Shown here: positions 7,568-63,295 of the stretch, in pieces
Layout of the letters: each line of letters starts with the position of its first letter
Numbering within the stretch: the stretch's first letter is position 1
From: Sinorhizobium fredii NGR234
GTDB taxonomy: Bacteria; Pseudomonadota; Alphaproteobacteria; Rhizobiales; Rhizobiaceae
Direction: 5' to 3'
DNA length: 64,000 bases
NCBI RefSeq assembly: GCF_000018545.1
Contig: NC_012586.1
Location: 2,294,001 to 2,358,000, forward strand
Position numbers and translations under genes: made by a program
Notes under the pieces: model-generated
The model's input: the letters and a program-made list of their open reading frames with translations, nothing else
What the model was told of the DNA's origin: nothing
Databases searched by the model: none

Positions 7568-8629
7568 TCACTTCGTTCCAGCCGGCTCCGGGGCCGCAGC
7601 CGGCGGCTTGCGCGTCACCGTCCCTCTCCTACGTTGTGCGTAGCCGGCGATGCCGATCGCGACGAGCAGCGTGACGCCGTTGAATAGCGGTTCGACGAAG
7701 AACGAGCCGCCGATTTGCTGGATGCCGGAGATGCCGACCGCCAGGATGATGACGCCGATCATCGTGCCCCAGACATTGACGCGGCCGGGCTTGATGGTGG
7801 TCGAGCCGAGGAAGGCGCCGACGAGGGCGGGCAGCAGATATTCGAGACCGACGCTCGCCTGGCCGATCCGCAGCTTCGAGGCGAGCAGCACGCCGGCAAG
7901 CGCGGCAAGCGTCCCCGACGAGACGAAGGCGCCGATGACGAAGCGGCGCACCGGAATGCCGTTCAGGGCCGCCGCCTTGGGGTTGGCACCGATCGCGTAG
8001 ACATAGCGGCCGATCGGCAGATATTCGAGGACCAGCCACAGCGCCAGCGCCAGGACGAGGACATAGAAGCCGGTGATCGGCAGGCCGAGCAGCATCGTGC
8101 CGTTCAACGAATAGAAGCCTTCCGGAAGGACGCCGACCACCTGCCGGCCGCCGGTGTGCCAGAGCGCCAGCGCATAGAGGATGGTTCCGGTGCCGAGCGT
8201 GGCGATGAAGGAGTCGATCCGCGCCACCTCGACGAGCAGGCCGTTCAGGAAGCCGGTGAGCGCGCCGAGCAGCAGGACGATCAGCACGGCGATCGGCCAG
8301 GGCACGCCGAACATCGTCTGCAGGCTGATCGCCAGGATATGCCACAGCACGATGCCGTAGCCGACCGTCAGGTCGATGCGTCCGGAGGCCATCGGGATCA
8401 TGGCCGCCAGTGACAGGATGGCGATGATCGCCTTGTCGGAGATGATCGAGCGGACATTGAGGACCGTCGGGAAGGTCTGCGGCAGGAGCAGCGAGAACAG
8501 CACGATCAGCAACAGGGTCAGGACGACGAGGCCGTAGACCGGCAGGAAACGGATGAGCTTCTGCGGCAGGCTGAGGCCGGCAAGCTCGCCGCGGGTTGGT
8601 TCAAGCGCGGTGGATTCGATCGACTGCAT
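7568..8629 (-). CDS. Sugar ABC transporter permease (RbsC-like)
   Basis: A 353-residue hydrophobic protein with about nine membrane segments. ATG 8629 (MQSIESTALEPTRG) follows GGGAGAAG and is 17 bases after the ATPase stop; longer in-frame reading extends antisense-like through the ATPase gene and is rejected. Family marks include IRSIISDKAIIAILSLAAMIPMASGRIDLTVG and GAFLGSTTIKPGRVNVWGT. This class works as a homodimer with a double-domain ATPase, which matches the gene upstream. Confidence 0.92.
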   Translation of the reverse strand: MQSIESTALEPTRGELAGLSLPQKLIRFLPVYGLVVLTLLLIVLFSLLLPQTFPTVLNVRSIISDKAIIAILSLAAMIPMASGRIDLTVGYGIVLWHILAISLQTMFGVPWPIAVLIVLLLGALTGFLNGLLVEVARIDSFIATLGTGTILYALALWHTGGRQVVGVLPEGFYSLNGTMLLGLPITGFYVLVLALALWLVLEYLPIGRYVYAIGANPKAAALNGIPVRRFVIGAFVSSGTLAALAGVLLASKLRIGQASVGLEYLLPALVGAFLGSTTIKPGRVNVWGTMIGVIILAVGISGIQQIGGSFFVEPLFNGVTLLVAIGIAGYAQRRRGTVTRKPPAAAPEPAGTK

Positions 8630-8646
8630 TTTCTTCTCCCGGAAAC

Positions 8647-10143
8647 TCAGGCGGCTTCGGAGGCCGAGGCGGCGGCAATCACCGCCGAGGTCGTCAGTTC
8701 TTCGCCCTTTAGCTCGCGGACGATGCGGCCGCGCGAAAAGACCAGGGCGCGATGGCAGATATGGGCGATTTCCTCGAAATCGGTCGAGACGACGACGACG
8801 GCGAGCCCCGCCTCGAGCGCCCGGGCGATCAGCCGGTAGATGTCGGCCTTGGCGCCGACGTCGACGCCGGCGGTCGGATCCTCGGCGACGAGCAGCTTGC
8901 GGCCGGTCGCCAGCCAGCGGCCGACCACGACCTTCTGCTGGTTGCCGCCGGACAGCGCCTCGATCGGCAGGCTCTGGTCGTTCGGCCTTAAGCCGACGCT
9001 GTCGCCGATTGCCTCGGCGAGCGCCGCCTCCTTCGAGGGGGCGAGGACCGAAAACAGGCCACGGCCCGAGGCCTGCGGATTGAGGAACGTGTTCTCGCGC
9101 AGCGACAGCGACATGGCGACCGACTCCTCCGTGCGGTCGCGAGCGATCAGGCCGACGCCGGAGCGCATCGCCGCCACCGGACTTGAGAGGTCGGGGGACT
9201 CGCCGCCGATCGTGATCGCTCCCGAAAACGGCTGGCAGCCGAACAGGGCCCGGCCGACCAATTCCTGGCCGGCGCCGCGCAGGCCGACGAGGCCGATGAG
9301 TTCGCCCTTGAGCACATCGAACGAAACCGGCCCGACGCCCTGGCAGGCGAGCTGCCTGACGCTGACGACCGCTTCGCCCGGCGTACTCGCCGCCTTGACG
9401 AAGAGCTGATCGGCCTTGCGCCCGACAATCATTTCGATGAGTTCGTCCGGGTTCGTCTCGGCGACCGGCTTCTGGCCGACGAGGCGGCCGTCGCGCAGCA
9501 CCGCAACGCGGTCGGCGATCCGGAAGATCTCGTCGAGCCGATGCGAAACGTAGATCATCGCGACGCCGCGCTCTTTCAGCGGCCGGATGGCGTTGAAGAG
9601 CCGCTCCACCTCGTCCGCCGGCAGGCTTGCCGTCGGCTCGTCGAGCACCAGCACATCCGCCTCGACGGCCAAGGCGCGGGCGATCGCCACCAGCGACTTC
9701 TCCGTACGCGTCAGCGACTGGACGCGGGTCGAGGGATCGAAATCGCAGCCGACGAGACGCAAGGCCTCGCGCGCCCGCTCCTCGGTGCGCCGCCAGTCGA
9801 TCAGCCGGGTCCGCATCGAGAAGCCCTGCGCCAGACCGACATTCTCGGCGACCGTCATCCATTCGATGAGGCCGAGATCCTGATGGATGAAGGCGACCGG
9901 CTGGCGCTTGTTCGGCTTCGGCGGCTGGTTGACATAGGGCTCGCCGCGGAACCGGATCTCGCCGCCGTCCGGCCGGTAGATGCCGGCGAGCGTCTTGATC
10001 AGGGTCGACTTGCCGGCGCCGTTCTCACCGAGAAGTGCCAGGATTTCACCGGCTTCGAGATCGAGTGAAACCTGCGACAGGGCCCGGGTGCCACCGAACT
10101 CCTTGGTGATCGCGCGGAACTCCAAGAGCTTTTGTTGATCCAT
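8647..10143 (-). CDS. Sugar ABC transporter, double ATP-binding protein (RbsA/XylG-like)
   Basis: A 498-residue protein with two ATPase domains, the normal arrangement for ribose-class sugar importers. Domain one has Walker A GENGAGKSTLIK and Walker B VLVLDEPTASL, but its signature region reads SLTRTEKSLV rather than LSGGQ. Domain two has GLRGAGQELV in place of Walker A, LSGGNQQKVVVGRW as signature and VAEDPTAGVDVG as a Walker B variant. Such asymmetry is usual in this family. It is first in the operon, with a perfect operator palindrome 37 bp upstream. Confidence 0.92.
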   Translation of the reverse strand: MDQQKLLEFRAITKEFGGTRALSQVSLDLEAGEILALLGENGAGKSTLIKTLAGIYRPDGGEIRFRGEPYVNQPPKPNKRQPVAFIHQDLGLIEWMTVAENVGLAQGFSMRTRLIDWRRTEERAREALRLVGCDFDPSTRVQSLTRTEKSLVAIARALAVEADVLVLDEPTASLPADEVERLFNAIRPLKERGVAMIYVSHRLDEIFRIADRVAVLRDGRLVGQKPVAETNPDELIEMIVGRKADQLFVKAASTPGEAVVSVRQLACQGVGPVSFDVLKGELIGLVGLRGAGQELVGRALFGCQPFSGAITIGGESPDLSSPVAAMRSGVGLIARDRTEESVAMSLSLRENTFLNPQASGRGLFSVLAPSKEAALAEAIGDSVGLRPNDQSLPIEALSGGNQQKVVVGRWLATGRKLLVAEDPTAGVDVGAKADIYRLIARALEAGLAVVVVSTDFEEIAHICHRALVFSRGRIVRELKGEELTTSAVIAAASASEAA

Positions 10144-10179
10144 GCGCTCCTCCCAAAGCCGCTGGCTGAGGAGGAGCTT

Positions 10180-10195
10180 ATGTTATCGATAACAT
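10180..10195 (-). promoter_or_regulatory. Perfect LacI-type operator upstream of the sugar ABC operon
   Basis: ATGTTATCGATAACAT is a perfect 16-bp palindrome 37 bp upstream of the ATPase start. It shares the core TGTTATCGATAACA with 5295-5308, linking the two transporters into one proposed regulon. Confidence 0.8.
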
Positions 10196-10247
10196 GATGG
10201 TCAAGAGGGAACTTCAACAGGCATCAACCATGGCGCGCAAGCGCAAA

Positions 10248-10275
10248 CCGCCCGCCGAGCGATCTCGGCGGGCGG
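10248..10275. terminator. Strong GC-rich hairpin, probable terminator
   Basis: CCGCCCGCCGAG-cgat-CTCGGCGGGCGG is a perfect 12-bp stem with a 4-base loop. On the minus strand it is followed by TTT, so it could have ended the leftward gene at 12913-13569 before the IS66 insertion separated them. Confidence 0.55.
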
Positions 10276-10307
10276 CTGTACGCATGGCTGCGATTCAGTC
10301 GGAGGCA

Positions 10308-10350
10308 CTACAGCGCCGCGCGCCCCATCGGGGCGCAAAGGCCGCTGTAG
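10308..10350. repeat. Rhizobial mosaic palindrome, left half, interrupted by IS66
   Basis: CTACAGCGCCGCGCG...GCTGTAG is an imperfect palindrome nearly identical to the copy at 20829-20872. Its continuation (CTTTGAGGTGCTGCAT and the stem at 12863-12909) lies on the far side of the insertion sequence, so the IS entered a composite repeat. Confidence 0.75.
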
Positions 10351-10351
10351 C
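10344..10351. repeat. IS66 target-site duplication, left copy
   Basis: GCTGTAGC directly precedes the left terminal repeat and is repeated exactly at 12844-12851. Eight bases is the usual duplication for IS66. Confidence 0.9.
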
Positions 10352-10373
10352 GTAAGCGGCAAGCTGAGGCCAT

Positions 10374-11966
10374 TCAGTCGGCGTAGTTCCACGGCATCAG
10401 CGCGTCGATTTCTGAACTCGGCCATCCGTTGGCAATGCGCTCGAGTGTCTGAGTGAGCCAGGCGAGCGGATCGACGTTGTTCATTTTTGCGGTCTGCAAG
10501 AGTGTCGCGATGGTCGCCCAGCTCCTTCCGCCGCCGTCGCTGCCGGCGAAGAGCGAGTTCTTGCGTGTGATTGCCTGGGGCCTGATTGCTCGCTCGACGA
10601 TGTTGGAGTCGAGCTCGATGCGGCCGTCGGCCAGGAAGCGCTCGAAGATGGCGCGACGCGAGATGGCGTAGCGGATCGCCTCGGCGAGCTTCGATTTGCC
10701 GGAGATCCGCGGCAGGGTCTTCTGCCAGAGAGCGAAGAGCTCGGTGACGATCGCGGCGGAGGTTTGCTGACGCACCGCGACACGGGCGTCAGGGCTTTGC
10801 CCGCGCACGGTCTCCTCGACCTGCCAGAGCTTCGCCATCCGCTCGACCGTCTCCGTTGCGACCTTCGAGCTTTCCGCGACATGCAGCTCATAGAACTTGC
10901 GCCGACTGTGTGACCAGCAGCCAGCCAATGTGACACCGTCATTGCCACGATCGGAGCGGACCAGCTTGTTGTAGGCGGCATAGCCGTCGACTTGCAGGAT
11001 TCCGCGGTAGCCCTTGAGATGCCGGGCGACGCACTCGCCGGCCCGACTGTCCTCAAAGCGGTAGACGACCATCGGCGGACCGCTGCCGCCAAATGGTCGG
11101 TCATCCCTGGCATAGGCCCATAGATAGGCTGTCTTCGTCGATCCGGAGCCGGGAGCGAGCGTCGGCAAGGTGGTCTCGTCGGCGAAGATCCGCTCGCCCT
11201 TCTTGATCTCATCGAAGAGGTAGTCGGCGAGGATCTCCAGCTCGAACCCGAGCTTGCCCATCCATTGCGCCATCAGCTTGCGGTCGAGCTCGACCTTGTC
11301 GCGGGCGTAGATCGCCTCCTGCCGGTAGAGCGGCAGGCCATCGGCATATTTGGAGACGGCGATCTGGGCCAGAAGCGCTTCCGTCGGAATGCCGCCTTCG
11401 ACGATGTGTGCCGGCGCCGGTGCCTGGACGACGCCGTCCTCGTTTTTGAAGGCATACTTCGGCCGGCGGGTAACGATGACGCGGAACTTCGCCGGCACGA
11501 CATCCAGCCGCTCCGACACGTCCTCGCCGATCAGCACCTTCTGCTTGCCGGCATGCTCCGGCAGCTCCTCCGGCTCCATCACCACTTCGACCCGCTCGAG
11601 GTGGGGTGCGAAGCCCTTGCGTGGCCGCGGTGGACGCTTGCCTTCCGGGCGCTCGCGGCCCTTGTTGACCTGTGCCCTGATCGCGGCGATGCCGGTCTCG
11701 ATTTCCTCGAAGACAAAGGCCTGCTGCTCGTCGTCGGTGGAGGGGGAGCCGAGCTTTTCCGATCGCCGGCCGAAGCGGGCCCGATCGAAGGCCTTCAGGA
11801 TCTGCGTCAACCGTTCGATACGCTCATCGGCATCGGCGTTGCGCGCCTTGAGATCTGCGACCTCGCTCTCCAGCGCGTCGGCCCGTGCCGCCTTTTCGGC
11901 CATGGCAAACACCATGGCTTTCAGCGCTTCAACGTCGTCTGGGAGGTCAAGATCGGGCGGCGTCAT
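10374..11966 (-). CDS. tnpC: IS66 transposase TnpC
   Basis: A 530-residue transposase. The N-terminal coiled coil (residues about 15-65, VEALKAMVFAMAEKA onward) precedes a zinc-binding-like region and the DDE-type catalytic core. Visible core blocks include FADETTLPTLAPG, ILQVDGYAAYNKL with AGCWSHSRRKFYEL, and the C-terminal IELDSNIVERAIRP with NSLFAGSDGGGRSW. These hold the acidic residues expected for IS66. The gene is open and full length, and its stop lies 22 bases inside the element end. Confidence 0.95.
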   Translation of the reverse strand: MTPPDLDLPDDVEALKAMVFAMAEKAARADALESEVADLKARNADADERIERLTQILKAFDRARFGRRSEKLGSPSTDDEQQAFVFEEIETGIAAIRAQVNKGRERPEGKRPPRPRKGFAPHLERVEVVMEPEELPEHAGKQKVLIGEDVSERLDVVPAKFRVIVTRRPKYAFKNEDGVVQAPAPAHIVEGGIPTEALLAQIAVSKYADGLPLYRQEAIYARDKVELDRKLMAQWMGKLGFELEILADYLFDEIKKGERIFADETTLPTLAPGSGSTKTAYLWAYARDDRPFGGSGPPMVVYRFEDSRAGECVARHLKGYRGILQVDGYAAYNKLVRSDRGNDGVTLAGCWSHSRRKFYELHVAESSKVATETVERMAKLWQVEETVRGQSPDARVAVRQQTSAAIVTELFALWQKTLPRISGKSKLAEAIRYAISRRAIFERFLADGRIELDSNIVERAIRPQAITRKNSLFAGSDGGGRSWATIATLLQTAKMNNVDPLAWLTQTLERIANGWPSSEIDALMPWNYAD

Positions 11967-53802: not shown

Positions 53803-54441
53803 CTACAGCACGATCACCTTGGCGCCGATTTTCACCCGCTCGTAGAGATCGATGACGTCGTCATTGGTCATGCGAAAACAACCCGAGGAGGAGGACCGGC
53901 CGACGCTTTCCGGTTCGTTCGAGCCGTGGATCCGGTAAAGCGTGTCGCCGAGATAGATGGCGCGCGCACCGAGCGGATTGTCGGCGCCGCCGGCCATGTA
54001 GGCCGGAAGTTCCGGCCGCCTGGCGCGCATGTCGGCGGGCGGGCGCCACTCCGGCCAGGCGCGCTTGCGGCTCACCATTTCGGTTCCGTGCCAGCCGTAG
54101 CCTTCTCGCCCGACGCCGACGCTGTAGCGCAGCGCCGTTCCGTGAGGCTGGACGTAATAGAGGGCGTAACGGCGCGTATCGATGATGATCGTTCCGGGCG
54201 CTTCCTGGGTGCGGTATTTCACCACCTGCCTCGGCAGGAACGCCCCCGGCGCATGACGCGGCGGGTAGGCCGGCGCCGACATCAGGAACTCGATATAGCC
54301 GCTGTCGATCCAGACCCGCTTGTTCTTCTTGTCGAGGATCGGCGGCCAAGGCTGGTCCGCGGTCGCCTGCGCGACGGTCGGCGCCAGGAGAAGGAGAAGA
54401 AGCAGCGCCCGCAGGAACTGCATTTTCGACAAATCCGACAT
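53803..54441 (-). CDS. L,D-transpeptidase (YkuD fold) at the end of the T3SS operon
   Basis: A 212-residue exported protein with signal peptide (MQFLRALLLLLLLAPTVAQA after a short lead). The YkuD domain has the substrate-site histidine in LYRIHGSNEPESVG and the nucleophile in SSSSGCFRM; the usual SHGC histidine is replaced by Ser, a variant also seen in other Rhizobiales members as far as I recall. These enzymes form 3-3 crosslinks or attach proteins to peptidoglycan. It starts 28 bases after sctU, so it is probably co-transcribed and could help fit the apparatus through the wall. Confidence 0.85.
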   Translation of the reverse strand: MSDLSKMQFLRALLLLLLLAPTVAQATADQPWPPILDKKNKRVWIDSGYIEFLMSAPAYPPRHAPGAFLPRQVVKYRTQEAPGTIIIDTRRYALYYVQPHGTALRYSVGVGREGYGWHGTEMVSRKRAWPEWRPPADMRARRPELPAYMAGGADNPLGARAIYLGDTLYRIHGSNEPESVGRSSSSGCFRMTNDDVIDLYERVKIGAKVIVL

Positions 54442-54469: not shown

Positions 54470-55507
54470 TCAAATCAGACCGTTGGCGACCAGGGCATTC
54501 GCCACCTCCTGGAAAAGCCGGTCGGGAACCGGCGCCCCGATGGGTGTCTTGCCAAGCTCGGCGGCAAGCTTCGCGTCGGCCATGAAGGGAATTGTCCGGC
54601 TTCTCGCCTGGGCTCGCATCGAGGAGGCCGCCGGGCCGAAAGCTCGACAGACGACGATCGGCACGGGCGTTTCGTCGCGCACATAGCGTATGCCGACCGA
54701 CACCGCCCCCTCCTCACCGATCAGCAGCACGGCGCCCGCAAGACCGGTCTTCGTCGTTCCAAGGAGACGCGCCAGTTTGCGGCGCTCCTGCCTGATGAGC
54801 GGGTCGCCTTCCGTGTCCTTGTGTTCGCGCTTGCTCTCCGACCGGGTCATCCGCATCTCGCGCAGGAACAGCCAGCGCTGCAGGAAGAGATCGACCGCGC
54901 CCATGACGACAAAGGCGGCGATGGCGATGGATGTGATGGTCTTCAGCATGGAGAGCGACGTCGCATGCAGGCAGGCAAAGCCGCAGGTCGGCGACTGGAA
55001 CAGCGATCCGAGCCCGGCATGGAAGACGACGGCAAAGGCAATGGAGAGCGCCGCGATCTTGAACAGCGCCTTGCCGAAATCGACGACGCTCTTCAACGAG
55101 GCGATCCGCTTCAGCCCCGATGCCGGATTGACACGGTTGAAATCCGGCGCGAGCGGCTCGGCCGAAAAGACGAAGCCCTTGGTGATCGCCACATTGGTGG
55201 CGAGAATGGCGACGATCGTGATGCCGAGGATGGGCAGCACCGTCGTCCAAAGCGCATCGGCGGCAATGGTGCTCAGCCGGTACCAGACATCGGCGAAGGG
55301 GCGCTCGTAGATATGCGACGCCTCGTCCAGGAGCCGCTCGATCTTCACCTGCAGGCTCGGCGCGACATAGAAGAGAAACAGGGTGGAGAACAGCACGACG
55401 ATGCCCGAGACCATGTCCGGGCTGTGCATCACCTGGCCTTTCCGGCGCGCGTCCCGGATCTTCTTGTCCGACGCGGGAAGCGACTTCTCCTCGCTTGTTT
55501 CGCTCAC
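54470..55507 (-). CDS. sctU: Type III secretion export-gate protein SctU (RhcU/YscU family) lacking NPTH
   Basis: A 345-residue FlhB/YscU-family protein. The N terminus KKIRDARRKGQVMHSPD is the family start; four membrane segments lie at about 34-50, 85-107, 145-168 and 185-210; the linker SKREHKDTEGDPLIRQERR is conserved. The cytoplasmic domain should contain the self-cleaving NPTH loop, but residues 264-267 read GEEG (LLIGEEGAVSVGIRYVRDET), so autocleavage cannot occur there. The start overlaps the TPR gene stop by 4 bases. It normally controls substrate switching. Confidence 0.93.
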   Translation of the reverse strand: MSETSEEKSLPASDKKIRDARRKGQVMHSPDMVSGIVVLFSTLFLFYVAPSLQVKIERLLDEASHIYERPFADVWYRLSTIAADALWTTVLPILGITIVAILATNVAITKGFVFSAEPLAPDFNRVNPASGLKRIASLKSVVDFGKALFKIAALSIAFAVVFHAGLGSLFQSPTCGFACLHATSLSMLKTITSIAIAAFVVMGAVDLFLQRWLFLREMRMTRSESKREHKDTEGDPLIRQERRKLARLLGTTKTGLAGAVLLIGEEGAVSVGIRYVRDETPVPIVVCRAFGPAASSMRAQARSRTIPFMADAKLAAELGKTPIGAPVPDRLFQEVANALVANGLI

Positions 55508-56358
55508 GTGACGCCGTCATCCCTGGACGACGCCAGAAGACCGATCTCCTGCGCACGCTTGGCAACGTCCGGGATGGCGCGCAGCTTCGCCGCCTTCGCC
55601 AAAATCTGGCCTTTCTGCCGCGCGGACATCTCGGGCACGGCGACGGAGCGCGCCTTTTCCGTTTCGCCGGCCATGGTCAGGACGATCAGGTAATTGACGA
55701 AATGGCGCCGTTCGGCGAGCGGCGAACCCACGACGCCCGTCATATGCGTGACCGCCTGCGTCAGGTTGTTCGAGAGTGCTTCGGCAAGCGCCAGATTTGT
55801 CGTCGTATCCAGGTTGGCGGGCTGCAGCGCCAGCGCCCTCGAAAAGGCACCCTCCGCCGCTCCCCCGTCGCCGCTGAAAACAAGCGCCGTTCCGAGGCGG
55901 TTATACGCCACCACCGAATTCAGCGCCTCGGCGGCCGGCGCCAGGCTTCGTGCAGCCGACTCGGCCTCGCCCTTCTGCAACTGGGCGGTGCCCAGTCCAA
56001 GCAGGGCATCGGGGTCCTTCGGATCGATCTCGAGCGCGGCGCGGAAGGCTTCCTCCGCCGCCTCGGCGTCGCCCGCCTTGAGGCGCGCATTGCCGAGGCG
56101 GACGCGCATCGATGCGTCGTTCGGCGCGTTGACGGCAGCACGCTCGTAGAGCGCCAGGGCCGTCGCGCTTTCGCCCTTCGCCTCGATGCTTTCGGCAACG
56201 CTCAACAGCTTCGTCTGGGCGCTCGCCTGCTTGTCCTTCTCCTTGTCGGCAGGAACCGTGGTGCAGGCGGAAAGCGCCAGAAGCGCAGCCACGGCTGCGA
56301 TCCCCCGCCCCATGCTACGCCGGCGACGGCCGGAACTCAGAATCGACCACGCCTTCAT
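55504..56358 (-). CDS. TadD-like TPR lipoprotein in the T3SS operon
   Basis: A 284-residue protein. A basic N terminus precedes a hydrophobic helix and the lipobox LLALSAC (about residues 26-32). The mature part holds about four to five TPR motifs (ATALALYERAAVNAPNDASM, AAEEAFRAALEIDPKDPDAL, AAEGAFSRALALQPANLDTT). The domain order resembles TadD, the TPR lipoprotein of Tad pili, more than any usual Sct protein. It could act as a pilotin or scaffold for the neighbouring secretin. GGAGGTAG precedes the ATG. Confidence 0.78.
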   Translation of the reverse strand: MKAWSILSSGRRRRSMGRGIAAVAALLALSACTTVPADKEKDKQASAQTKLLSVAESIEAKGESATALALYERAAVNAPNDASMRVRLGNARLKAGDAEAAEEAFRAALEIDPKDPDALLGLGTAQLQKGEAESAARSLAPAAEALNSVVAYNRLGTALVFSGDGGAAEGAFSRALALQPANLDTTTNLALAEALSNNLTQAVTHMTGVVGSPLAERRHFVNYLIVLTMAGETEKARSVAVPEMSARQKGQILAKAAKLRAIPDVAKRAQEIGLLASSRDDGVT

Positions 56359-56756
56359 TCTACCTCCGTCTCATTGGTCGCATTGCGGTGGTTACCTTCA
56401 CCGTAGCGATCGATGTAGGTCTTCGCGGCGCGCGCCACCGGCGCCGCCATCGCCGGCCCCATTTCGCGGCCCTTGAGCAGGTGCCGCTGATCCGCAGCCA
56501 TGAGCTGCAGATTGAGGTTGTTGGCACAGCCGGACGGCAGGTAAAGCGGCTGGTCGGCGGTATCCGGCGTGATGCAGGCATCCGGCACCAGCGTCTGCGT
56601 CTCGGTCGTGTCGTAGCCCTTGCGAACGAGCCCGCCCTTCGCCGGCGGGGCGCCGTGCATCGACAGATAGCTGTAGTTCGGAGAATAGGGCTGCGGATGC
56701 GAACCGCTGCAGCCTGCCGGGATGAGCAGGGCTGCGATCAGCGTGGCGCGGGCCAT
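56355..56756 (-). CDS. CpaD-like secreted protein in the T3SS operon
   Basis: A 133-residue protein starting at ATG 56756 behind GGGAGGGGCG, with a signal or lipoprotein peptide (MARATLIAALLIPAGC). The C-terminal half (LPSGCANNLNLQLMAADQRH, then LLKGREMGPAMAAPVARAA) follows the CpaD pattern of Tad pilus systems, where a Gly-Cys-Ala-x-x-x-Asn-Leu segment precedes a Pro/Arg-x-Leu region and a pairing of Ala and Arg residues. It is shorter than typical CpaD. Position directly after the secretin gene supports an outer-membrane accessory role. The start overlaps no neighbour; an ATG at 56786 is the alternative. Confidence 0.6.
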   Translation of the reverse strand: MARATLIAALLIPAGCSGSHPQPYSPNYSYLSMHGAPPAKGGLVRKGYDTTETQTLVPDACITPDTADQPLYLPSGCANNLNLQLMAADQRHLLKGREMGPAMAAPVARAAKTYIDRYGEGNHRNATNETEVE

Positions 56757-56775
56757 CGCCCCTCCCGAGGAGATA

Positions 56776-58119
56776 TCATTCGACATAGAAGCCGTATCCC
56801 TTGTTGACCGCCGGTTTCGCCTTCTTGCGCGGCGAGGTAATCGCACCGGCGGGGCTGTCCAGCGGCGTCTTCATGTTTCGCTCGGAGGTGGGCGTCACCA
56901 GATACGGGGTGATCAGGATGACGAGTTCCGTCTCGTTGCGCTGGAACCGCTTGGATTTGAACAATTCGCCGAGGATCGGCACGTCGCCGACGACAGGCGT
57001 CTTGTTCAGCGTCTGCGACTCCTGGCGCTGGAACAGGCCGGCGATCGCGAAGGTCTGGCCGCTGCCGACCTCGACGGCCGTGTCCGCCCGGCGGATGCGC
57101 AGCGACGGTACCACCAGCCCGCTGATCGAAACGACACTGTCCTGCGATACGCTGCTGACCTCGGGACGCACTTGGAGGGCAATGCGGTTGTTCGGCAGCA
57201 GCGTCGGCGTGAATTGCAGCGACACGCCGAACTGCTTGTATTCGATGCCGATCTGACCATCGCCGGCCGGCACCGGAACCGGTATCTCGCCGCCGGCCAG
57301 GAAGCTGGCGGTCTGGCCGGTGACGGCGGTGATGTTGGGCTCCGCAAGGATCGTCAGGATGCCGTTCGCCTGCAGCGCGTCGAGCAGCACATTGACGTTC
57401 ACATGGTCGCCGCGCGCACCGATGGCGATCCCGGTGTCGTCCTCGTTGCTGGCCCCGCCGGTCCGGACAATGCCGAAGGAGAAGGAGCCGCTGTTGACGA
57501 AGAGGCTCCAGTCGATGCCGAAGCGCGTCAGCTCGTTGCGGGCGACCTCGGCGAAGCGGACGCGGATATTGACCTGGTTCGACCCGGCAATCGTCGTGTT
57601 GTTGAGCGCCGGCCGATCGGGTGTCGAATAGCTCTGCAGGACACTTTCCATGTCCATCGCCTCGCCGACATTGCGGGTCTGGCCGGTGCCGACATATTGC
57701 CCGCCGAACAGGCTGATATCGACCCGGGTGGTCGGCTGCAGCGCCAGCGCCGACTGCTCCGCGGCCCTCGGATTGCCGCTGACGCGAACCTGCACGGTGC
57801 CGCGCGTCATCTGGTCGGCGCTGAGAGCGATGAGATTGGTGTCGCCGGTCTTCGTCGCGTAGATATAGACGACGCCGGGCGAGACGACGCGCACGTCGGC
57901 GATCGCCGTGTCGGCCAGAAACACCGACTCGACCGGCTCGTCGAAGCGAAGGATCGTGCCTTCCCCGACCGTCAGCTCCAGAACCTGGCCGTTTATCGCG
58001 TCGACCTTCACCTGGGCGCTCGCCGAAGGCAGCGCACAGTGGACCGCAAGCACGGTCAGCAAGATAAGCAGAAAGACTTTCCCCGTCCGGACAGGACGAA
58101 GGCTTCGCAAGACTAGCAT
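56776..58119 (-). CDS. sctC: CpaC/RhcC2-type secretin of the T3SS
   Basis: A 447-residue protein starting at ATG 58119 (GGGAGTGG upstream) with a signal peptide ending near ASA. Residues about 40-115 form the pilus-type N-terminal domain (ILRFDEPVESVFLADTAIAD, VYIYATKTGDTNLIALS), followed by BON-like and secretin domains (VNVNVLLDALQANGILTILA, FLAGGEIPVPVPAG, QDSVVSISGLVVPSLRIRRA, KTPVVGDVPILGELFKS). This layout is that of Tad-pilus CpaC secretins. In the rhizobial T3SS the outer ring is made by RhcC2 with a separate RhcC1, which is encoded here at 62639. Confidence 0.88.
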   Translation of the reverse strand: MLVLRSLRPVRTGKVFLLILLTVLAVHCALPSASAQVKVDAINGQVLELTVGEGTILRFDEPVESVFLADTAIADVRVVSPGVVYIYATKTGDTNLIALSADQMTRGTVQVRVSGNPRAAEQSALALQPTTRVDISLFGGQYVGTGQTRNVGEAMDMESVLQSYSTPDRPALNNTTIAGSNQVNIRVRFAEVARNELTRFGIDWSLFVNSGSFSFGIVRTGGASNEDDTGIAIGARGDHVNVNVLLDALQANGILTILAEPNITAVTGQTASFLAGGEIPVPVPAGDGQIGIEYKQFGVSLQFTPTLLPNNRIALQVRPEVSSVSQDSVVSISGLVVPSLRIRRADTAVEVGSGQTFAIAGLFQRQESQTLNKTPVVGDVPILGELFKSKRFQRNETELVILITPYLVTPTSERNMKTPLDSPAGAITSPRKKAKPAVNKGYGFYVE

Positions 58120-58201: not shown

Positions 58202-60346
58202 TCATGGGCGACCGTCGACTGCGAGTTCCGGCACTCCGGAGACCGGAAGCGCGATATAGCCGAGGCATTGGACGCTGAACTCCGCTGCGATCTCCTGGTA
58301 GGACAGAACCGCCATCTGCACGTCGTGGCGCATCAGCAGGTTTCGGATGTGCCGACGAAGATCCATCGAGGTCAGGATCGCGGCGCGCGACTGCGCGCCC
58401 GCCTTCTCCCGCCGCTTCTTGAGCTCCTCGAGGATCGGTGCCGCCAGGCGTTCCGGAACCGCGCCGGCCGGACCGCTATTCTTCTCGACCGCCGCTCTGA
58501 GCTCGTCCTCGAACGGCCGTGTCAGCAGATAGGCCGAAACGATCCGGTTGCTGTCGGCGAGGCGAAAGCAGATCTGCCGCCCGAGGCCCGCCCGTACATG
58601 ATCGGCGAGCGCCTGCAGGTTCTGGATCTGCGCCCCACGTTCGGCGATCGTCTGGAGAATGATACGCATATTGGTGATCGGAACATCTTCCTCGATCAGC
58701 CTGCGCAGCACGTCGGAGAGCCTCTGCGCCGAGACGACGTCCAGAACCTCCTTGGTCAGATCTCCGAATGTCCCCTCCAGCCGGCCGAGAAGCGCCCGCG
58801 TTTCCTGCGCGTCGATGAAGTCCGGCGCATAGCGGCGCAGTACGCGCTCGACGAGCGTCATCACCACGTCCGCCGCCTCGCAATAGCCGACACCGGCAGC
58901 GTCGAGGGCTGCCGCATGCGACCTGTCGATCCAGACGAGCTTCAATCCCATCAGGTCCGGCTGCGTCACATAGGGGATCGACAGGATGTCGAGGTCGACG
59001 GTTTCATCCCAGGCCATCAGATGATCGGGCAGGAGCGCGCCATCGACGACGGGAACGCCCTCGAAATCGATGCGAAACTCGGCCGTCGCGAGCCGCGCGT
59101 CGGTCAGCCGGCCGATCGCCGGAACGCGGATGCCGAGGTCTTCCAGGATCGCCTCGGCGAGGCTTTCGGTCCGTTCGGCGAACAGGGGCGGAGGGAGACG
59201 CTCGCCAAGCCCTTCCCCCATCGTCAGAGTGAGCCTATGCGCCATTCCGAGATCCGAGCCGGCACCCGGCAGATTGCCCGCTATGTGATCGACGACGCGC
59301 CCCCCGGGGGAAACGGGGCGGGCTTCGCGCCGGTTCTGAGCAGAACCCGTAACCTCTTCGGCCGCCTGACGTTTGCGGGCAGCGTAGGCGAGCAGCCCGG
59401 CCAGGCCGGCGAGCGGCCAGAACACGATCAGCGGAAAGCCCGGAACCAACCCGAAGCCGAAAAGGATCGCCGCCGCCAGCGCCAGCGCCCGATCGCTCGC
59501 GCCGAGCTGACCGAGGATTTCGGAGCTGAGGTCCTGCGGGCGCCGACCGGACGGCACGCGCGTCACCACCGCCCCTGCCGCCACCGCCATCATCAGCGCC
59601 GGTATCTGCGAAATCAGCCCGTCGCCGACCGTCAGCAGCGAATAGGTATGCGCCGCCTCCCCGACCGTGAGCCCGCGCTGCAGCGATCCGATCGCCAGCC
59701 CGCCGATGAGGTTGATCGCGATGATGATCAATCCCGCCACCGCGTCGCCCTTGACGAATTTCATCGCCCCGTCCATGGCGCCGTAGAACTGGCTTTCGCG
59801 TTCGAGGTCGTCGCGTTTTCGACGGGCTTCCTGCTGGTCGATGTCGCCGCTGCGCGCCTCGTTGTCGATGCTCATCTGCTTGCCCGGCATCGCGTCGAGC
59901 GCGAAGCGGGCGCCAACCTCGGCGACGCGCTCGGCGCCTTTGGTGATTACGACGAACTGGGCGATGGTGATGATCAGGAAGACGATGAGCCCGACCAGCA
60001 CGTCGCCGCCGACGACGAAGGATCCGAATGCCGCGACGATCTGACCGGCATCCGCCTCAGTCAGGATCAGCCGCGTGGTGGTGATCGCCAATGCAAGCCG
60101 GAAGAGCGTGCCGAGCAGGATGATCGACGGCAGCGAAGAGAATTGCGCCGGGCTCGAAATATAGAGCGCGCCGACAAGAATGAGCAGGCTGTAGAAAAAG
60201 TTGAAGCCGATCAGCATGTCGACGAGAAAAGTCGGCATCGGGATGATCATCATGGTGATCGCCAGCATCACCACGGCCGCGACGACGATGTCCGACCGCC
60301 GGGATGCCGCCCTGGCGAACTGGTTGACCGCGGCGATCACGCTCAT
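58202..60346 (-). CDS. sctV: Type III secretion export-gate protein SctV (RhcV/YscV family)
   Basis: A 714-residue FHIPEP-family protein. ATG 60346 begins MSVIAAVNQFARAASRRSDI and overlaps the upstream gene by 4 bases. The N-terminal half has about seven membrane segments and the conserved block FVVITKGAERVAEVGARFAL, DAMPGKQMSIDNEARSGDID, KFVKGDAVAGLIIIAINLIG. The C-terminal cytoplasmic domain forms the nonameric docking ring for chaperone-substrate complexes. The gene is full length and marks the locus as a true secretion system. Confidence 0.96.
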   Translation of the reverse strand: MSVIAAVNQFARAASRRSDIVVAAVVMLAITMMIIPMPTFLVDMLIGFNFFYSLLILVGALYISSPAQFSSLPSIILLGTLFRLALAITTTRLILTEADAGQIVAAFGSFVVGGDVLVGLIVFLIITIAQFVVITKGAERVAEVGARFALDAMPGKQMSIDNEARSGDIDQQEARRKRDDLERESQFYGAMDGAMKFVKGDAVAGLIIIAINLIGGLAIGSLQRGLTVGEAAHTYSLLTVGDGLISQIPALMMAVAAGAVVTRVPSGRRPQDLSSEILGQLGASDRALALAAAILFGFGLVPGFPLIVFWPLAGLAGLLAYAARKRQAAEEVTGSAQNRREARPVSPGGRVVDHIAGNLPGAGSDLGMAHRLTLTMGEGLGERLPPPLFAERTESLAEAILEDLGIRVPAIGRLTDARLATAEFRIDFEGVPVVDGALLPDHLMAWDETVDLDILSIPYVTQPDLMGLKLVWIDRSHAAALDAAGVGYCEAADVVMTLVERVLRRYAPDFIDAQETRALLGRLEGTFGDLTKEVLDVVSAQRLSDVLRRLIEEDVPITNMRIILQTIAERGAQIQNLQALADHVRAGLGRQICFRLADSNRIVSAYLLTRPFEDELRAAVEKNSGPAGAVPERLAAPILEELKKRREKAGAQSRAAILTSMDLRRHIRNLLMRHDVQMAVLSYQEIAAEFSVQCLGYIALPVSGVPELAVDGRP

Positions 60347-60678
60347 TCCGCCGCCCTCGCCCGAAGGTAGGCCTCGAACGCCTCGCGGGCCCGATCCTTG
60401 TCGCCGCGCAGCCACTCCGCCTTGCTCCTCAGCCGCTGAAGGGCTGGATCGATGGCCTCGGATATGTCCTCGATCCGATCGATGGCGGCGATCGCACGCG
60501 GGCCGGCGCCGGATTCGGCGAATGCTTCGGCCAGCGAATGCAGCACCGGGACATTGTCCGGCGCCATCTTTGCCGCGAGCAGAAGAAACACCAGGCCGCG
60601 CTCGTGATGGCCGGCGCGACAGTAGAGCGAACCGAGCGCATGAAGGAATTCGAGGCTGTCTGCGTGGCGCTCAGTCAA
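60343..60678 (-). CDS. TPR protein, SctY (YscY)-like
   Basis: A 111-residue TPR protein (LEFLHALGSLYCRAGHHERG, LVFLLLAAKMAPDNVPVLHS, AREAFEAYLRARAAE). Its length and place, between a 124-residue protein and SctV with 4-base overlaps on both sides, match yscX-yscY-yscV of Yersinia, where YscY is a 114-residue TPR chaperone that binds YscX and the SctV ring. TPR chaperones of other Sct classes are alternatives. The SctY assignment rests on size, fold and order, not on clear sequence identity. Confidence 0.6.
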   Translation of the reverse strand: MTERHADSLEFLHALGSLYCRAGHHERGLVFLLLAAKMAPDNVPVLHSLAEAFAESGAGPRAIAAIDRIEDISEAIDPALQRLRSKAEWLRGDKDRAREAFEAYLRARAAE

Positions 60679-61049
60679 CTGCTTTGCGCCTGCATGAGCC
60701 GCTGCTGCAGATCGCGTCTGCTTTCGATCTCGTCGTTCAGCATCGATGCGGTGAGGTTGCGGATGTCCTCGTCGAGATCCAATCCGGGCAAGACCTCCCG
60801 GACGATATAGGCCAGGACCTCCTGGGAACGCGACAGGTCGAACAGCGTCGCATTCGAAAGCCTGGCCCGCTCGGCCCCGCCCGCCCGGACATTGCCGGCC
60901 GACGTCCTCTGGCGGGCCTGGCGGATCGATTGCAGGAGCCGCGCGTCGAACTCCTGCGGCTGGCTTCGTCCGGCCGCCTCCGGTCGCAACGACACCGCAC
61001 TCGACTGGCCGCGGCTGCGATTGTCGTGTCGGCGGACTTCGATGCTCAT
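60675..61049 (-). CDS. Small T3SS protein, possible SctX (YscX)-like
   Basis: A 124-residue soluble protein. Residues 1-60 are basic, polar and probably disordered (RRHDNRSRGQSSAVSLRPEA), as in an export signal region. Residues about 65-120 are predicted helical with acidic and leucine-rich faces (LPGLDLDEDIRNLTASMLND, EIESRRDLQQRLMQ). YscX has 122 residues, a flexible N terminus and a helical C terminus that binds YscY. The gene directly precedes the TPR gene and sctV, the same order as in Yersinia. Homology is inferred only. Confidence 0.5.
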   Translation of the reverse strand: MSIEVRRHDNRSRGQSSAVSLRPEAAGRSQPQEFDARLLQSIRQARQRTSAGNVRAGGAERARLSNATLFDLSRSQEVLAYIVREVLPGLDLDEDIRNLTASMLNDEIESRRDLQQRLMQAQSS

Positions 61050-61074: not shown

Positions 61075-61983
61075 CTAGAAGCGGAGGACGAATTCTTCGC
61101 CTTGCCGCGCCGCCGTCAGGCTGCTGTCACGGATATCCTTGATGTACCAGCCGTCCTCGAGTGCCGCCCCCTTGTAGAGACGCGCCCCGTCGGCGCTGAT
61201 CGCATAGGGGGTGTCGCCGAACCAGATGGCCTGAAGGTGGAACTTCGGCGCGCTCTGCGGAGCCGCCTCGCCGACAAGGCTGGTGAGGACATAGCTGGTG
61301 CCGTAGGTGCGGTCGAACCAGGCCTGGACCTCGCTCCACGGCTTGCGGGCCGCGTCGTCGACGGCACCGGAAACGGAAAACCGCGTCCCGTCGGCCTCGA
61401 TCTTCAGGTCCGACAGGCCGGTCTCGCGCAGCCTTGCGGCAAGCGCCGCCGAGACGTCCTGCGGCGAGGGAGCCGAGGAAGCGATCGTTCCGGTCGTCAT
61501 CGCCGTCGCCTCGATACCCACCGTGGAAGGCCGGTGATCGACCTCCGCAACCCCGGCCTGCACGGCCGCTATGGTGAGAAGCGAGAAAGCGGCGACGCCG
61601 CCGAGCATCCAGCTGGCGCGCGAGGACTTTTCCGCCTTTCGGCCGGCTGCTTCCCGCATTGGCCGGGAAAGGTTGAGGCGCGCACCGCCGAGCGTCACGG
61701 TCACCGGGATCCGGACCTGCAGCCCGTGACCGACGGGAACGGTCGTGTCGTCCACCACGAGATCGGCGCCGATCGCCTCGACCATGACCTCGGAGCCGGC
61801 AAACTGCAGGCGCATGTGGTGCGCCGACACGTCGCGGTCGCTGAGCATCAGGTCGCAATCGGCGCCCGAACCGATCAGATAAGCGCCCTTTTCCAGGGGC
61901 AGGGAGACGCCGCTGTGAACGCCCTTCAGGACATCGAGCGTCAGAGGCGTGGCCGAATTCCTCAAGACCAGATTGGATGCCAT
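61075..61983 (-). CDS. sctD: Type III secretion inner-membrane ring protein SctD (FHA domain)
   Basis: A 302-residue protein starting at ATG 61983 (GAGGTGATAG upstream). Residues about 15-105 form an FHA-like cytoplasmic domain (GAYLIGSGADCDLMLSDRDV, SAHHMRLQFAG), residues about 125-148 are the single membrane segment (WMLGGVAAFSLLTIAAVQAG), and the periplasmic part has a BON-like fold (LAARLRETGLSDLKIEADGT). This is the SctD/YscD order. It is shorter than YscD, with fewer periplasmic ring modules. It forms the outer inner-membrane ring with SctJ. Confidence 0.85.
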   Translation of the reverse strand: MASNLVLRNSATPLTLDVLKGVHSGVSLPLEKGAYLIGSGADCDLMLSDRDVSAHHMRLQFAGSEVMVEAIGADLVVDDTTVPVGHGLQVRIPVTVTLGGARLNLSRPMREAAGRKAEKSSRASWMLGGVAAFSLLTIAAVQAGVAEVDHRPSTVGIEATAMTTGTIASSAPSPQDVSAALAARLRETGLSDLKIEADGTRFSVSGAVDDAARKPWSEVQAWFDRTYGTSYVLTSLVGEAAPQSAPKFHLQAIWFGDTPYAISADGARLYKGAALEDGWYIKDIRDSSLTAARQGEEFVLRF

Positions 61984-62074
61984 GGAACTATCACCTCGCT
62001 CGCCGGATAGCCGAGACACCGACGCTGCGCGCAAGGCGCAGCCCGGTCCAAGTCAGGATCTTTACGAATGGGAT

Positions 62075-62107: not shown

Positions 62108-62269
62108 TTAGCCGTTCGGACGCTGCTTTGCGGCGTCGAGCGCGACCTTCTTTTCGGTCGTGATCTCGGTGATCTTGGCGGACTTGTCGATCGCCTTGTC
62201 GAAGGCGTCCGTCATCTTCTGGATCGAATTGTCCGAGGTTTGCGTACCGCCCACACCGGAAACTGCCAT
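62108..62269 (-). CDS. Small T3SS protein, candidate needle subunit SctF
   Basis: A 53-residue protein starting at ATG 62269 behind AAGGAGAAGAC. It begins MAVSGVGGTQTSDNSIQKMT and is otherwise helical and charged, with the ending KVALDAAKQRPNG that resembles C-terminal segments of small needle proteins. It is first in the leftward operon, has the best ribosome-binding site and is followed by a stable hairpin, features expected of an abundant needle subunit. It is shorter than YscF (87 residues), so a different secreted component remains possible. Confidence 0.55.
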   Translation of the reverse strand: MAVSGVGGTQTSDNSIQKMTDAFDKAIDKSAKITEITTEKKVALDAAKQRPNG

Positions 62270-62638
62270 TGTCTTCTCCTTGATAATTCGGCCGGCTTGC
62301 GAGCGCAGCTCACACCGCCGGCATGCTTTCCTTATCGAGTCGACTACCCTCCATCGGGCGCAGCAATGGTTAAGGTCGAAGTTCTGGAATGACAATTTGC
62401 AAGAGCATCACATAATATTTCTTGCTGTAATATATCGTGATATCAAACGATTTAATCGCCATGAAATCGCTTATCCCTTGTATTATAATATTGGTATATA
62501 GTTTATCTCATAACGTGTTCCAGATTTTGCTTGTTTAGCTATTGGCGTTGCTATCGATTTTACCCAACTGCGAGTTGCGTGTGCCGACCTACTGTTATAG
62601 CTTTCAGCCGCTCGATGCGAACGATCGGAACGTTTGCC
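62270..62638. promoter_or_regulatory. AT-rich divergent promoter region of the T3SS operons
   Basis: 369 bases between the divergent needle-like and rhcC1-like genes. The core from about 62395 to 62560 is strikingly AT-rich for this genome and includes TATTATAATATTGGTATATAG and the inverted repeat ATATC-gt-GATAT at 62432-62443. It is the obvious site for both promoters and for silencing or activating proteins such as MucR/Ros-type factors. No tts-box consensus could be confirmed by eye. Confidence 0.65.
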
Positions 62639-63295
62639 ATGAAAATGGTCATGTTCACCGGGAGACTCTGCGTGTTTGCTATCGCTACATTAGCAGCCAC
62701 AGCTGCGAGTTTCGCGGAAGCACCGCGGTGGTATGACAGCCGATACAGCTATGTCCTGATCAACCAGGATGTTCGCGACGCGTTGAAGGAGTTCGGCCGC
62801 AACCTGTCCCTTCCCGTCGTCCTGTCCGACAGGATTCGCGGCCAGGTGCGCGGCGAAATCCGCGCCGCTACGGCAGGCGACTTCCTCGACAGGCTCACCC
62901 AGGCCAACGGCCTCATCTGGTATTTCGACGGGTCGATCCTGCATATCAATACCAGCGACGAGTTCTCGACCCAGATCATCGATATAGGCAGGGCGAACGG
63001 CCGGTCCGTCATCGACGAGATCGAGCGCCTCGACCTCATGGACGGGCGCTTTTCAGTGCGCGCCACCACCAATGCGCCGGCGCTGCGCGTTTCGGGCCCG
63101 CCGCCCTTCATCGCCATGGTGAAGCAGGTTGCCGCATCCGTTCAGCCGCCGCCGGCGACACAAGTGGACGATCCGCGGGTGCGGATCTTTCGCGGCGGCC
63201 AGCGCGACGAGGTGACGGCGGATCTGGTCGAGACGGATCGCCAGGCGGCCCCCGCCAATCGCAAGAAAACCAAGAGCCCAGCAGGAGAGCAATGA
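62639..63295 (+). CDS. RhcC1/NolW-like N-terminal secretin-domain protein
   Basis: A 218-residue exported protein. ATG 62639 opens a signal peptide (MKMVMFTGRLCVFAIATLAA, cleaved after SFA); ATG 62615 is possible. The mature part has the N0 domain (YVLINQDVRDALKEFGRNLS, GEIRAATAGDFLDRLTQANG, WYFDGSILHIN) and an N1-like domain (RFSVRATTNAPALRVSGPPP). It ends without the membrane-spanning secretin domain. This is the RhcC1/NolW type, which in rhizobia complements the separate RhcC2. The gene order rhcC1, rod protein, sctJ parallels nolW-nolB-nolT. Confidence 0.85.
   Translation: MKMVMFTGRLCVFAIATLAATAASFAEAPRWYDSRYSYVLINQDVRDALKEFGRNLSLPVVLSDRIRGQVRGEIRAATAGDFLDRLTQANGLIWYFDGSILHINTSDEFSTQIIDIGRANGRSVIDEIERLDLMDGRFSVRATTNAPALRVSGPPPFIAMVKQVAASVQPPPATQVDDPRVRIFRGGQRDEVTADLVETDRQAAPANRKKTKSPAGEQ

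Follow-up and report, generated by a model that had tools for sequence, protein, structure and literature searches.

Three Tad-like genes as a probable outer-membrane assembly kit in the Rhc-II type III secretion system of Sinorhizobium fredii NGR234

The window considered here is a 64,000-nt stretch of the Sinorhizobium fredii NGR234 genome (RefSeq GCF_000018545.1, contig NC_012586.1, positions 2,294,001 to 2,358,000), and coordinates below are those of the window. At 55504-58119, on its minus strand, three open reading frames (ORFs) are flanked by sctV (58202-60415) and sctU (54470-55507), genes of a type III secretion system (T3SS). Reading from sctV, they encode a Tad-type secretin, RhcC2 (56776-58119), with a pilus N-terminal and a secretin domain; a short CpaD-like lipoprotein of 133 residues (56355-56756; lipobox Cys16); and a TadD-like tetratricopeptide repeat (TPR) lipoprotein of 284 residues (55504-56358; lipobox LSAC, Cys32). 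The last two genes overlap by 4 bases (56355-56358), as do the TPR gene and sctU (55504-55507). An original prediction, made from the letters of the window and its ORFs, had placed consecutive CpaC-, CpaD- and TadD-like genes between sctV and sctU, and genes with such matches are indeed found there.

The three genes sit in a Rhc-II type T3SS: the cluster has the split RhcC1/RhcC2 secretin and a SctD-X-Y-V block beside RhcC2, and RhcC2 itself, flanked by SctV and SctU, is not in a Tad pilus locus. We take the cluster to be T3SS-2 of S. fredii NGR234 on pNGR234b, presumably the system that served Gazi et al. (2012) as their Rhc-II example.

The sole convincing Pfam matches of RhcC2 are PF00263 (1.1e-43) and PF13629 (6.9e-17), with no T3SS N0/N1 domains. 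Complementary T3SS N-domains are carried by RhcC1 (TIGR02516 match), a division of domains described in the accessible part of Abby and Rocha (2012). The closest solved relative of RhcC2 is RcpA of the Pseudomonas aeruginosa Tad system (8odn, 7.1e-48). In both secretin trees (57 and 71 rows, described below), the secretins of Rhc-II systems group together (100/100) within the Tad secretins; the proposed Tad origin of this secretin thus stands, and the grouping away from Tad secretins that would have told against it was not seen. The RhcC2 ORF is open from 58170, and the ATG at 58119, the start used in the original prediction, is residue 18 of this longer frame. It is the likely start, but is not fixed, because the best 19 records aligned (at least 60% identity) are split, beginning at residue 18 in 8 cases, residue 1 in 6, and residues 24-36 in 5.

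The 133-residue protein matches PF09476 (3.3e-5, 24.2 bits) over the last 44 positions of the family (155-198 of 200). Profile-profile comparison (hhalign) of 11 relatives with 15 CpaD proteins gives a much firmer match (97.9%, E 3.3e-13, 55 columns), and a Pseudomonas luteola homologue exceeds the PF09476 cut-off (33.1 and 34.7 bits vs 31.1). A CpaD motif arising by chance was rejected on these two results. The conserved block is LPxGCANxxNL...DLxxGRxMGPA, and C16, C61, G76, and C77 are invariant across the 79 rows of the alignment. The protein has the C-terminal GCxxxxNL...DL block of CpaD, a lipid-site cysteine, and a gene directly after the secretin gene; what it lacks is the full-length domain, including the N-terminal OmpA-like part. 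A version of 143 residues would fit an ATG at 56786, overlapping the secretin stop. Since the Pfam match is partial and below cut-off, the profile-profile match firm, and the P. luteola member above cut-off, it is best labeled a CpaD C-terminal-part protein rather than a member of CpaD: the likeness originally predicted stands for the C-terminal quarter, while the window copy itself falls under the Pfam threshold.

Shortening of CpaD is not unique to T3SSs, and the idea that it might be was not adopted, because CpaD proteins of 124-127 residues follow cpaC in three Tad loci, one from Caballeronia (L124), one from Burkholderia (L038), and L176; the L124 protein, the one of the three that was scanned, passes the Pfam cut-off. 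An order-level search with the CpaD-like protein found matches in 12 of 297 genomes. The 8 strong ones (E ≤1.6e-11, own genome included) are all from T3SS loci. Among the 4 weak ones, two (G015 and G102) have no T3SS or Tad match, one (G028) is a Tad CpaD, and G107 is the fourth. A search of solved structures returned only mitochondrial L52, at E ~0.5.

The 284-residue protein matches many TPR families in Pfam. Against six TadD proteins from Tad loci, hhalign gives 99.8% for an alignment of 250 columns that extends beyond the repeats. Because TPR proteins resemble one another, those of seven genomes were also ranked within each genome, with a TadD profile that includes the TadD of the NGR234 genome and no T3SS row. 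The T3SS protein was the top match after TadD in all seven (60.8-101.7 bits), followed by the next TPR protein that was neither TadD nor Y4yS, the TPR lipoprotein of Rhc-I systems (40.8-65.2 bits); the narrowest margin was in G298 (60.8 vs 52.2 bits), and in G304 and G306 the top match was called TadD by score only, not having been found beside CpaD. In NGR234 itself, the TadD encoded in the Tad locus scores 347.6 bits, ahead of the window protein at 99.8, Y4yS at 82.9, and a generic TPR protein at 52.2. The TadD likeness proposed for this protein is therefore specific, and its identification as a generic TPR protein was rejected. The reverse search is weaker: with a Rhc-II TPR profile, TadD is the best non-self match in the NGR234 genome by 41.1 vs 35.3 bits. 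A wider Rhc-II profile scores 71-135 bits against 12 Tad-locus TadD proteins of other bacteria, and only 40-53 against three further ones (L213, L214, and L222).

All 49 aligned rows, 6 of them TadD, share the lipid-site cysteine and Asn188. By its position, Asn188 may correspond to the TadD groove residue D139, which is a conserved asparagine elsewhere according to the accessible text of Tassinari et al. (2023; PMC10499894). Neither the TPR protein nor the CpaD-like protein matched a known T3SS pilotin family in Pfam or NCBIfam, up to E 1 (for the TPR protein in NCBIfam, among the best 25 of 29 matches).

This gene order is widely conserved. A scan of named genomes for Rhc-II secretins kept 80 of 222 relatives, a sample that favors close ones. 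The CpaD-like gene follows the secretin gene on the same strand in all 80 loci, and 77 also have a TPR gene close by, which is inverted in 60 and shares the strand in 17; with linkage this constant, chance association of the module can be set aside. SctV precedes the secretin in 75 of the 80 by a strict 600-base rule, and only L084 is without any SctV match. A simple lipobox pattern is found in 73 of 80 CpaD-like and 71 of 77 TPR proteins, the misses including wrong ORF starts and unusual lipoboxes. The loci range over Rhizobiaceae, Phyllobacteriaceae, Labrys, Paracoccaceae, Pseudomonas, and Halomonadaceae. With 11 further loci, which include the window itself and at least three that repeat contigs of the 80, the matches become 91 of 91 for the CpaD-like gene and 86 of 91 for the TPR gene.

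The C-terminal end of the secretin is also conserved. In Rhc-II secretins the linker ahead of the end is variable and the end itself constant: a glycine and a hydrophobic residue, followed by one to four residues and the terminus (G-hydrophobic-x(1-4)-end), close 74 of 74 distinct tails, vs 14 of 1184 internal linker positions. The RhcC2 tail in the window is GYGFYVE. The same pattern ends 8 of 9 distinct Rhc-I tails (background 10/144) and, among distinct Tad tails, 58 of 66 (background 92/1056). In P. aeruginosa, RcpA needs its last four residues to bind TadD and to assemble into a ring (PMC10499894, accessible text). The conserved RhcC2 tail thus resembles the TadD-binding tail of Tad secretins, and may likewise be bound by its TPR neighbor.

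Three other secretin loci have unusual features. In L035 (Halomonas sp. PA16-9 plasmid, 8965-10259) the secretin reads as two separate ORFs, and is either broken or a sequencing error. In L142 (S. meliloti B399 pSymA 73243-92466; 8932-11210) a TadD-like TPR ORF (59 bits) comes 315 bases after a Tad-type secretin, and the 19 kb examined gave no match to CpaB, CpaE, CpaF, or a T3SS marker; the two look like a secretin-pilotin pair. L030 (NGR234 genome, C2:1042001-1060000; 7673-9500) has a divergent Tad secretin whose tail is without the GF motif, with CpaB, CpaE, and CpaF nearby; it is followed by a protein of 110 residues that has no Pfam match but fits a CpaD profile made here (2.3e-13).

Taken together, the families, tail, gene order, and phylogeny make it probable that the three genes form an outer-membrane assembly kit for the Rhc-II T3SS, derived from a Tad pilus, with functions assigned by analogy to Tad and Rhc-I systems. 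RhcC2 would be the outer-membrane channel, with RhcC1 probably connecting it to SctD. The TPR lipoprotein would act as a TadD-type pilotin, binding the C-terminal end of RhcC2 in its TPR groove, carrying the secretin to the outer membrane or holding it there, and driving ring assembly. In Caulobacter crescentus, according to the accessible text of PMC13170226, CpaD is a needed partner of CpaC, modeled as a belt around it, and has an OmpA-like N-terminal part able to bind peptidoglycan. On that model, the short Rhc-II lipoprotein would keep the belt, the part of CpaD that presumably touches the ring and lies against the secretin barrel, and would have lost the peptidoglycan anchor.

Several observations weigh against this. 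The window's CpaD-like protein is below the curated PF09476 cut-off (24.2 vs 31.1 bits), and in a longer reading of 163 residues reaches 16.7 bits with TIGR02522, for which the cut-off is 94.45. Five of the 91 loci have no TPR match, judged at the locus only: in L059 the sequence ends there, while in L022, L036, L078, and L106 it continues. All five keep the secretin tail, so the tail does not strictly follow a neighboring TPR gene. R79, which holds the RcpA end in P. aeruginosa TadD, could not be placed in the window TPR protein without a structure. Finally, the C. crescentus TadD orthologue CpaO is dispensable, with CpaD essential (PMC13170226, as accessible), so the key pilotin is not necessarily the TPR protein.

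One of the five, L036, is on a Klebsiella pneumoniae plasmid (pAP855, 39-10591) typed as conjugative, where a Rhc-II-like T3SS cluster has a secretin and a short CpaD-like gene but no TPR neighbor.

Much of this has been anticipated for Rhc-I. The accessible parts of the literature report a Tad-type secretin (Abby and Rocha, 2012), a CpaD homologue, mlr8762, and a lowering of RhcC2 in membranes on loss of the TPR lipoprotein Y4yS (Mercante et al., 2015, PMC4311626), and describe Y4xK as a putative lipoprotein (Tampakaki, 2014). Gazi (2015) gave a Tad-type pilotin reading for Rhc-I, and stated that Rhc-II is without y4yS; for Rhc-II, the accessible part of Gazi et al. (2012) describes a split secretin and an opposite-facing TPR ORF. 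The open-access literature, seen mostly as titles and the beginnings of abstracts, with subscription papers outside it, yielded no paper mentioning either a CpaD-like gene of Rhc-II systems or recruitment from Tad on separate occasions. The original reading is therefore supported, and largely in print already for Rhc-I; new here are the kit in Rhc-II, the CpaD cut to its C-terminal part, the specific TadD test, the tail evidence, and the case for a second recruitment.

The Rhc-II kit resembles the outer-membrane complex of the Tad (Flp) pilus (RcpA/CpaC, TadD, and CpaD) in its three families, its lipid-site cysteines, its secretin tail, and the common adjacency of secretin and CpaD. It differs in lying inside a T3SS operon, where no neighboring Tad pilus gene was seen; in having CpaD reduced to the C-terminal part; and in a secretin presumably tied to RhcC1/SctD instead of the pilus alignment complex. 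Rhc-I has the same kit (RhcC2, Y4xK, and Y4yS) and the same RhcC1/RhcC2 split, and the Y4yS of this genome, which shares 97.8% identity with a TPR protein annotated beside sctV in a second Sinorhizobium, likewise matches TadD specifically (82.9 bits, as above). Unlike its Rhc-II counterpart, however, the Rhc-I CpaD of this genome (Y4xK) is full length (PF09476 positions 1-200, 64.5 bits), Y4yS is short (182 residues), and each Rhc-I protein falls elsewhere among its Tad relatives. The Rhc-I genes are also scattered, with C2-CpaD beside a TtsI-type regulator and V-Y4yS elsewhere, whereas the Rhc-II kit is more compact. The Rhc-II T3SS-2 of Pseudomonas syringae (HrcIIC2) is similar, loci L100 and L110 carrying SctV, C2, CpaD-like, and inverted TPR genes; in the accessible part of Gazi et al. 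(2012) its TPR ORF is not called a lipoprotein or pilotin, and no CpaD-like gene is named. Classical T3SS pilotins and PilF/PilW of type IVa pili are likewise outer-membrane lipoproteins aiding secretin assembly. PilF/PilW are TPR proteins, but TPR domains are unseen in other known T3SS pilotins (Gazi, 2015), and the RcpA-TadD binding mode differs from that of PilQ-PilF (PMC10499894, accessible text).

The number of recruitments is less easily settled. The first secretin tree has 57 rows (33 Rhc-II, 7 Rhc-I, 16 Tad, and 1 type II secretion system). The second has 71 (19 Rhc-II, 9 Rhc-I, and 43 Tad); it omits the type II row, 14 of the Rhc-II rows, and several others that were duplicates or had long branches, and uses 34 of the 55 newly marked Tad loci. 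Tad status was assigned by neighbors. Of 60 added loci (two places occurring twice), 55 have CpaB and/or CpaE, and 5, with TtsI and/or SctU, are T3SSs; among 16 older Tad-labeled loci, 15 have CpaB, CpaE, or CpaF. The other is L142, one of the 43 Tad rows, and since it has none of these nearby its label is wrong or unproved; its place is far out in the tree, in an outer clade shared with three Tad rows that do have such markers. A joint secretin and CpaD tree used 46 of 61 rows, after removal of long branches and near-duplicates.

Rhc-I and Rhc-II were joined in 0 of 200 bootstrap trees for each of secretin, TPR, CpaD, and secretin plus CpaD. Holding them together gave approximately unbiased (AU) test p-values of 0.047 (secretin), 0.053 (TPR), 0.235 (CpaD), and 0.016 (secretin plus CpaD), which are optimistic, because the first tree had already been seen when the group was named. 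The TPR test excluded L142; with L142 included, the TPR groups are also apart. The Rhc-I secretin is sister to those of Azospirillum and Skermanella Tad systems in 198 of 200 bootstraps, and in the CpaD-only tree Rhc-I stands beside L146 with almost no support. The sister of the Rhc-II secretin is L174 plus L200 in 183 of 200 (93/71), and in the joint tree L169, so that the position of Rhc-II is less sure than that of Rhc-I.

From these trees, separate recruitment of the Tad kit by Rhc-I and Rhc-II appears to have slightly the better of an even chance. A single recruitment in their common ancestor, with the separation in the trees due to long-branch or model error, is nonetheless a serious contender, if somewhat short of evens. 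The truncated RhcC1 common to both groups is most simply one event (accessible part of Abby and Rocha, 2012), and favors either a single origin followed by a swap or two events in parallel. The AU test does not reject a joint group for TPR or CpaD, several backbone branches have low bootstrap values, and the nearest Tad rows of Rhc-II shift between trees. Against it are the complete absence of joined bootstrap trees, the secretin and joint AU results, and the well-placed Rhc-I secretin. The fuller scenario of two recruitments can be put forward only tentatively, at a little under even odds: the Rhc family would have taken a complete Tad kit twice, from different Tad lineages, Rhc-II would have trimmed CpaD down to the part facing the secretin, and in one clade an L,D-transpeptidase encoded directly after sctU would have taken over anchoring to, or passage through, the peptidoglycan.

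A second alternative is that Tad supplied only a pair, the secretin and CpaD-like genes, and that the TPR protein is a generic one or joined separately, with a chaperone or regulatory role. In 17 Tad stretches, tadD was found in 12, in some of them 3.5-8 kb from the adjacent cpaC-cpaD, and not found in 5. The orientation of the Rhc-II TPR gene also varies, it has no match in 5 of 91 loci, and the reverse profile search separates TadD only narrowly from other TPR proteins of the genome. This alternative seems unlikely, however, given the first rank of the T3SS protein among non-TadD TPR proteins in all seven genomes, a TadD match that extends past the repeats, the invariant lipid-site cysteine, and the 77/80 linkage. 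As for the suggestion that a whole module was recruited, then, the three families do occur together, but their transfer as a block, with tadD distant or not found in Tad stretches, is not shown. In 9 of the 12 Tad stretches with tadD (L233, L235, L238, L240, L241, and L243-L246) it is on the opposite strand to cpaC-cpaD, a parallel to the inverted TPR gene of most Rhc-II loci.

That the CpaD-like protein is instead an unrelated small lipoprotein with a look-alike motif is very improbable: its similarity is limited to some 45-55 residues and its PF09476 score is below cut-off, but against this stand the profile-profile match, the P. luteola member, the cpaD-like position directly after the secretin, and the comparably short CpaD proteins of Tad loci, of which that of L124 exceeds the cut-off.

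If the three genes are an assembly kit of Tad origin, they offer a testable answer to the question raised by Gazi (2015) of how the secretin is delivered in Rhc-II, said to lack y4yS. Pilotins are usually specific to their own secretins, and a secretin moving with its pilotin and a ring-binding lipoprotein would show how an outer-membrane channel changes machine. Ring binding and peptidoglycan binding may be uncoupled in a naturally short CpaD, with implications for what CpaD does in Tad pili. Should the two-recruitment reading be true, the outer ring would be an exchangeable cassette, swapped by T3SSs as a unit with its own pilotin.

The flanking genes are T3SS components. SctV matches TIGR01399 (6.5e-217, over its cut-off); SctU, the export apparatus switch protein, matches PF01312 (1.7e-71) and TIGR01404 (7.2e-75, under its cut-off). 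Also on the minus strand, beyond sctV, are a SctY-like TPR chaperone (60343-60678; NF052415 1.1e-15, 58.1 bits, under the cut-off of 70); a SctX-like candidate (60675-61049), named by its position before SctY, with no family match and same-place homologues in many Rhc-II loci; and SctD, an inner-membrane ring protein of Y4yQ/HrpQ type (61075-62034; PF16697, PF21934, PF23893, and TIGR02500 at 2.2e-23, just under cut-off). On the plus strand, upstream of the module, are RhcC1, sctJ, sctL, sctN, a sctO-like gene, sctQ, sctR, and sctT; RhcC1 (62531-63295) consists of remnant T3SS-type secretin N-domains (PF21304 2.6e-8; TIGR02516 positions 2-151 of 463, 1.1e-26).

On the other side, 28 bases after sctU, is a gene for a YkuD-type L,D-transpeptidase (53803-54441, minus strand; PF03734 1.6e-19). 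Homologues occur in 30 of the 80 Rhc-II loci, 28 of them directly after sctU, and the enzyme is a possible peptidoglycan-side partner of the T3SS. Upstream of sctD, a protein of 53 residues (62108-62269, minus strand), without a convincing family, is a candidate needle or NopA-like subunit; it or its 56-residue Phyllobacterium counterpart is matched in 52 of the 80 Rhc-II loci, in 50 of them within 500 bases before sctD.

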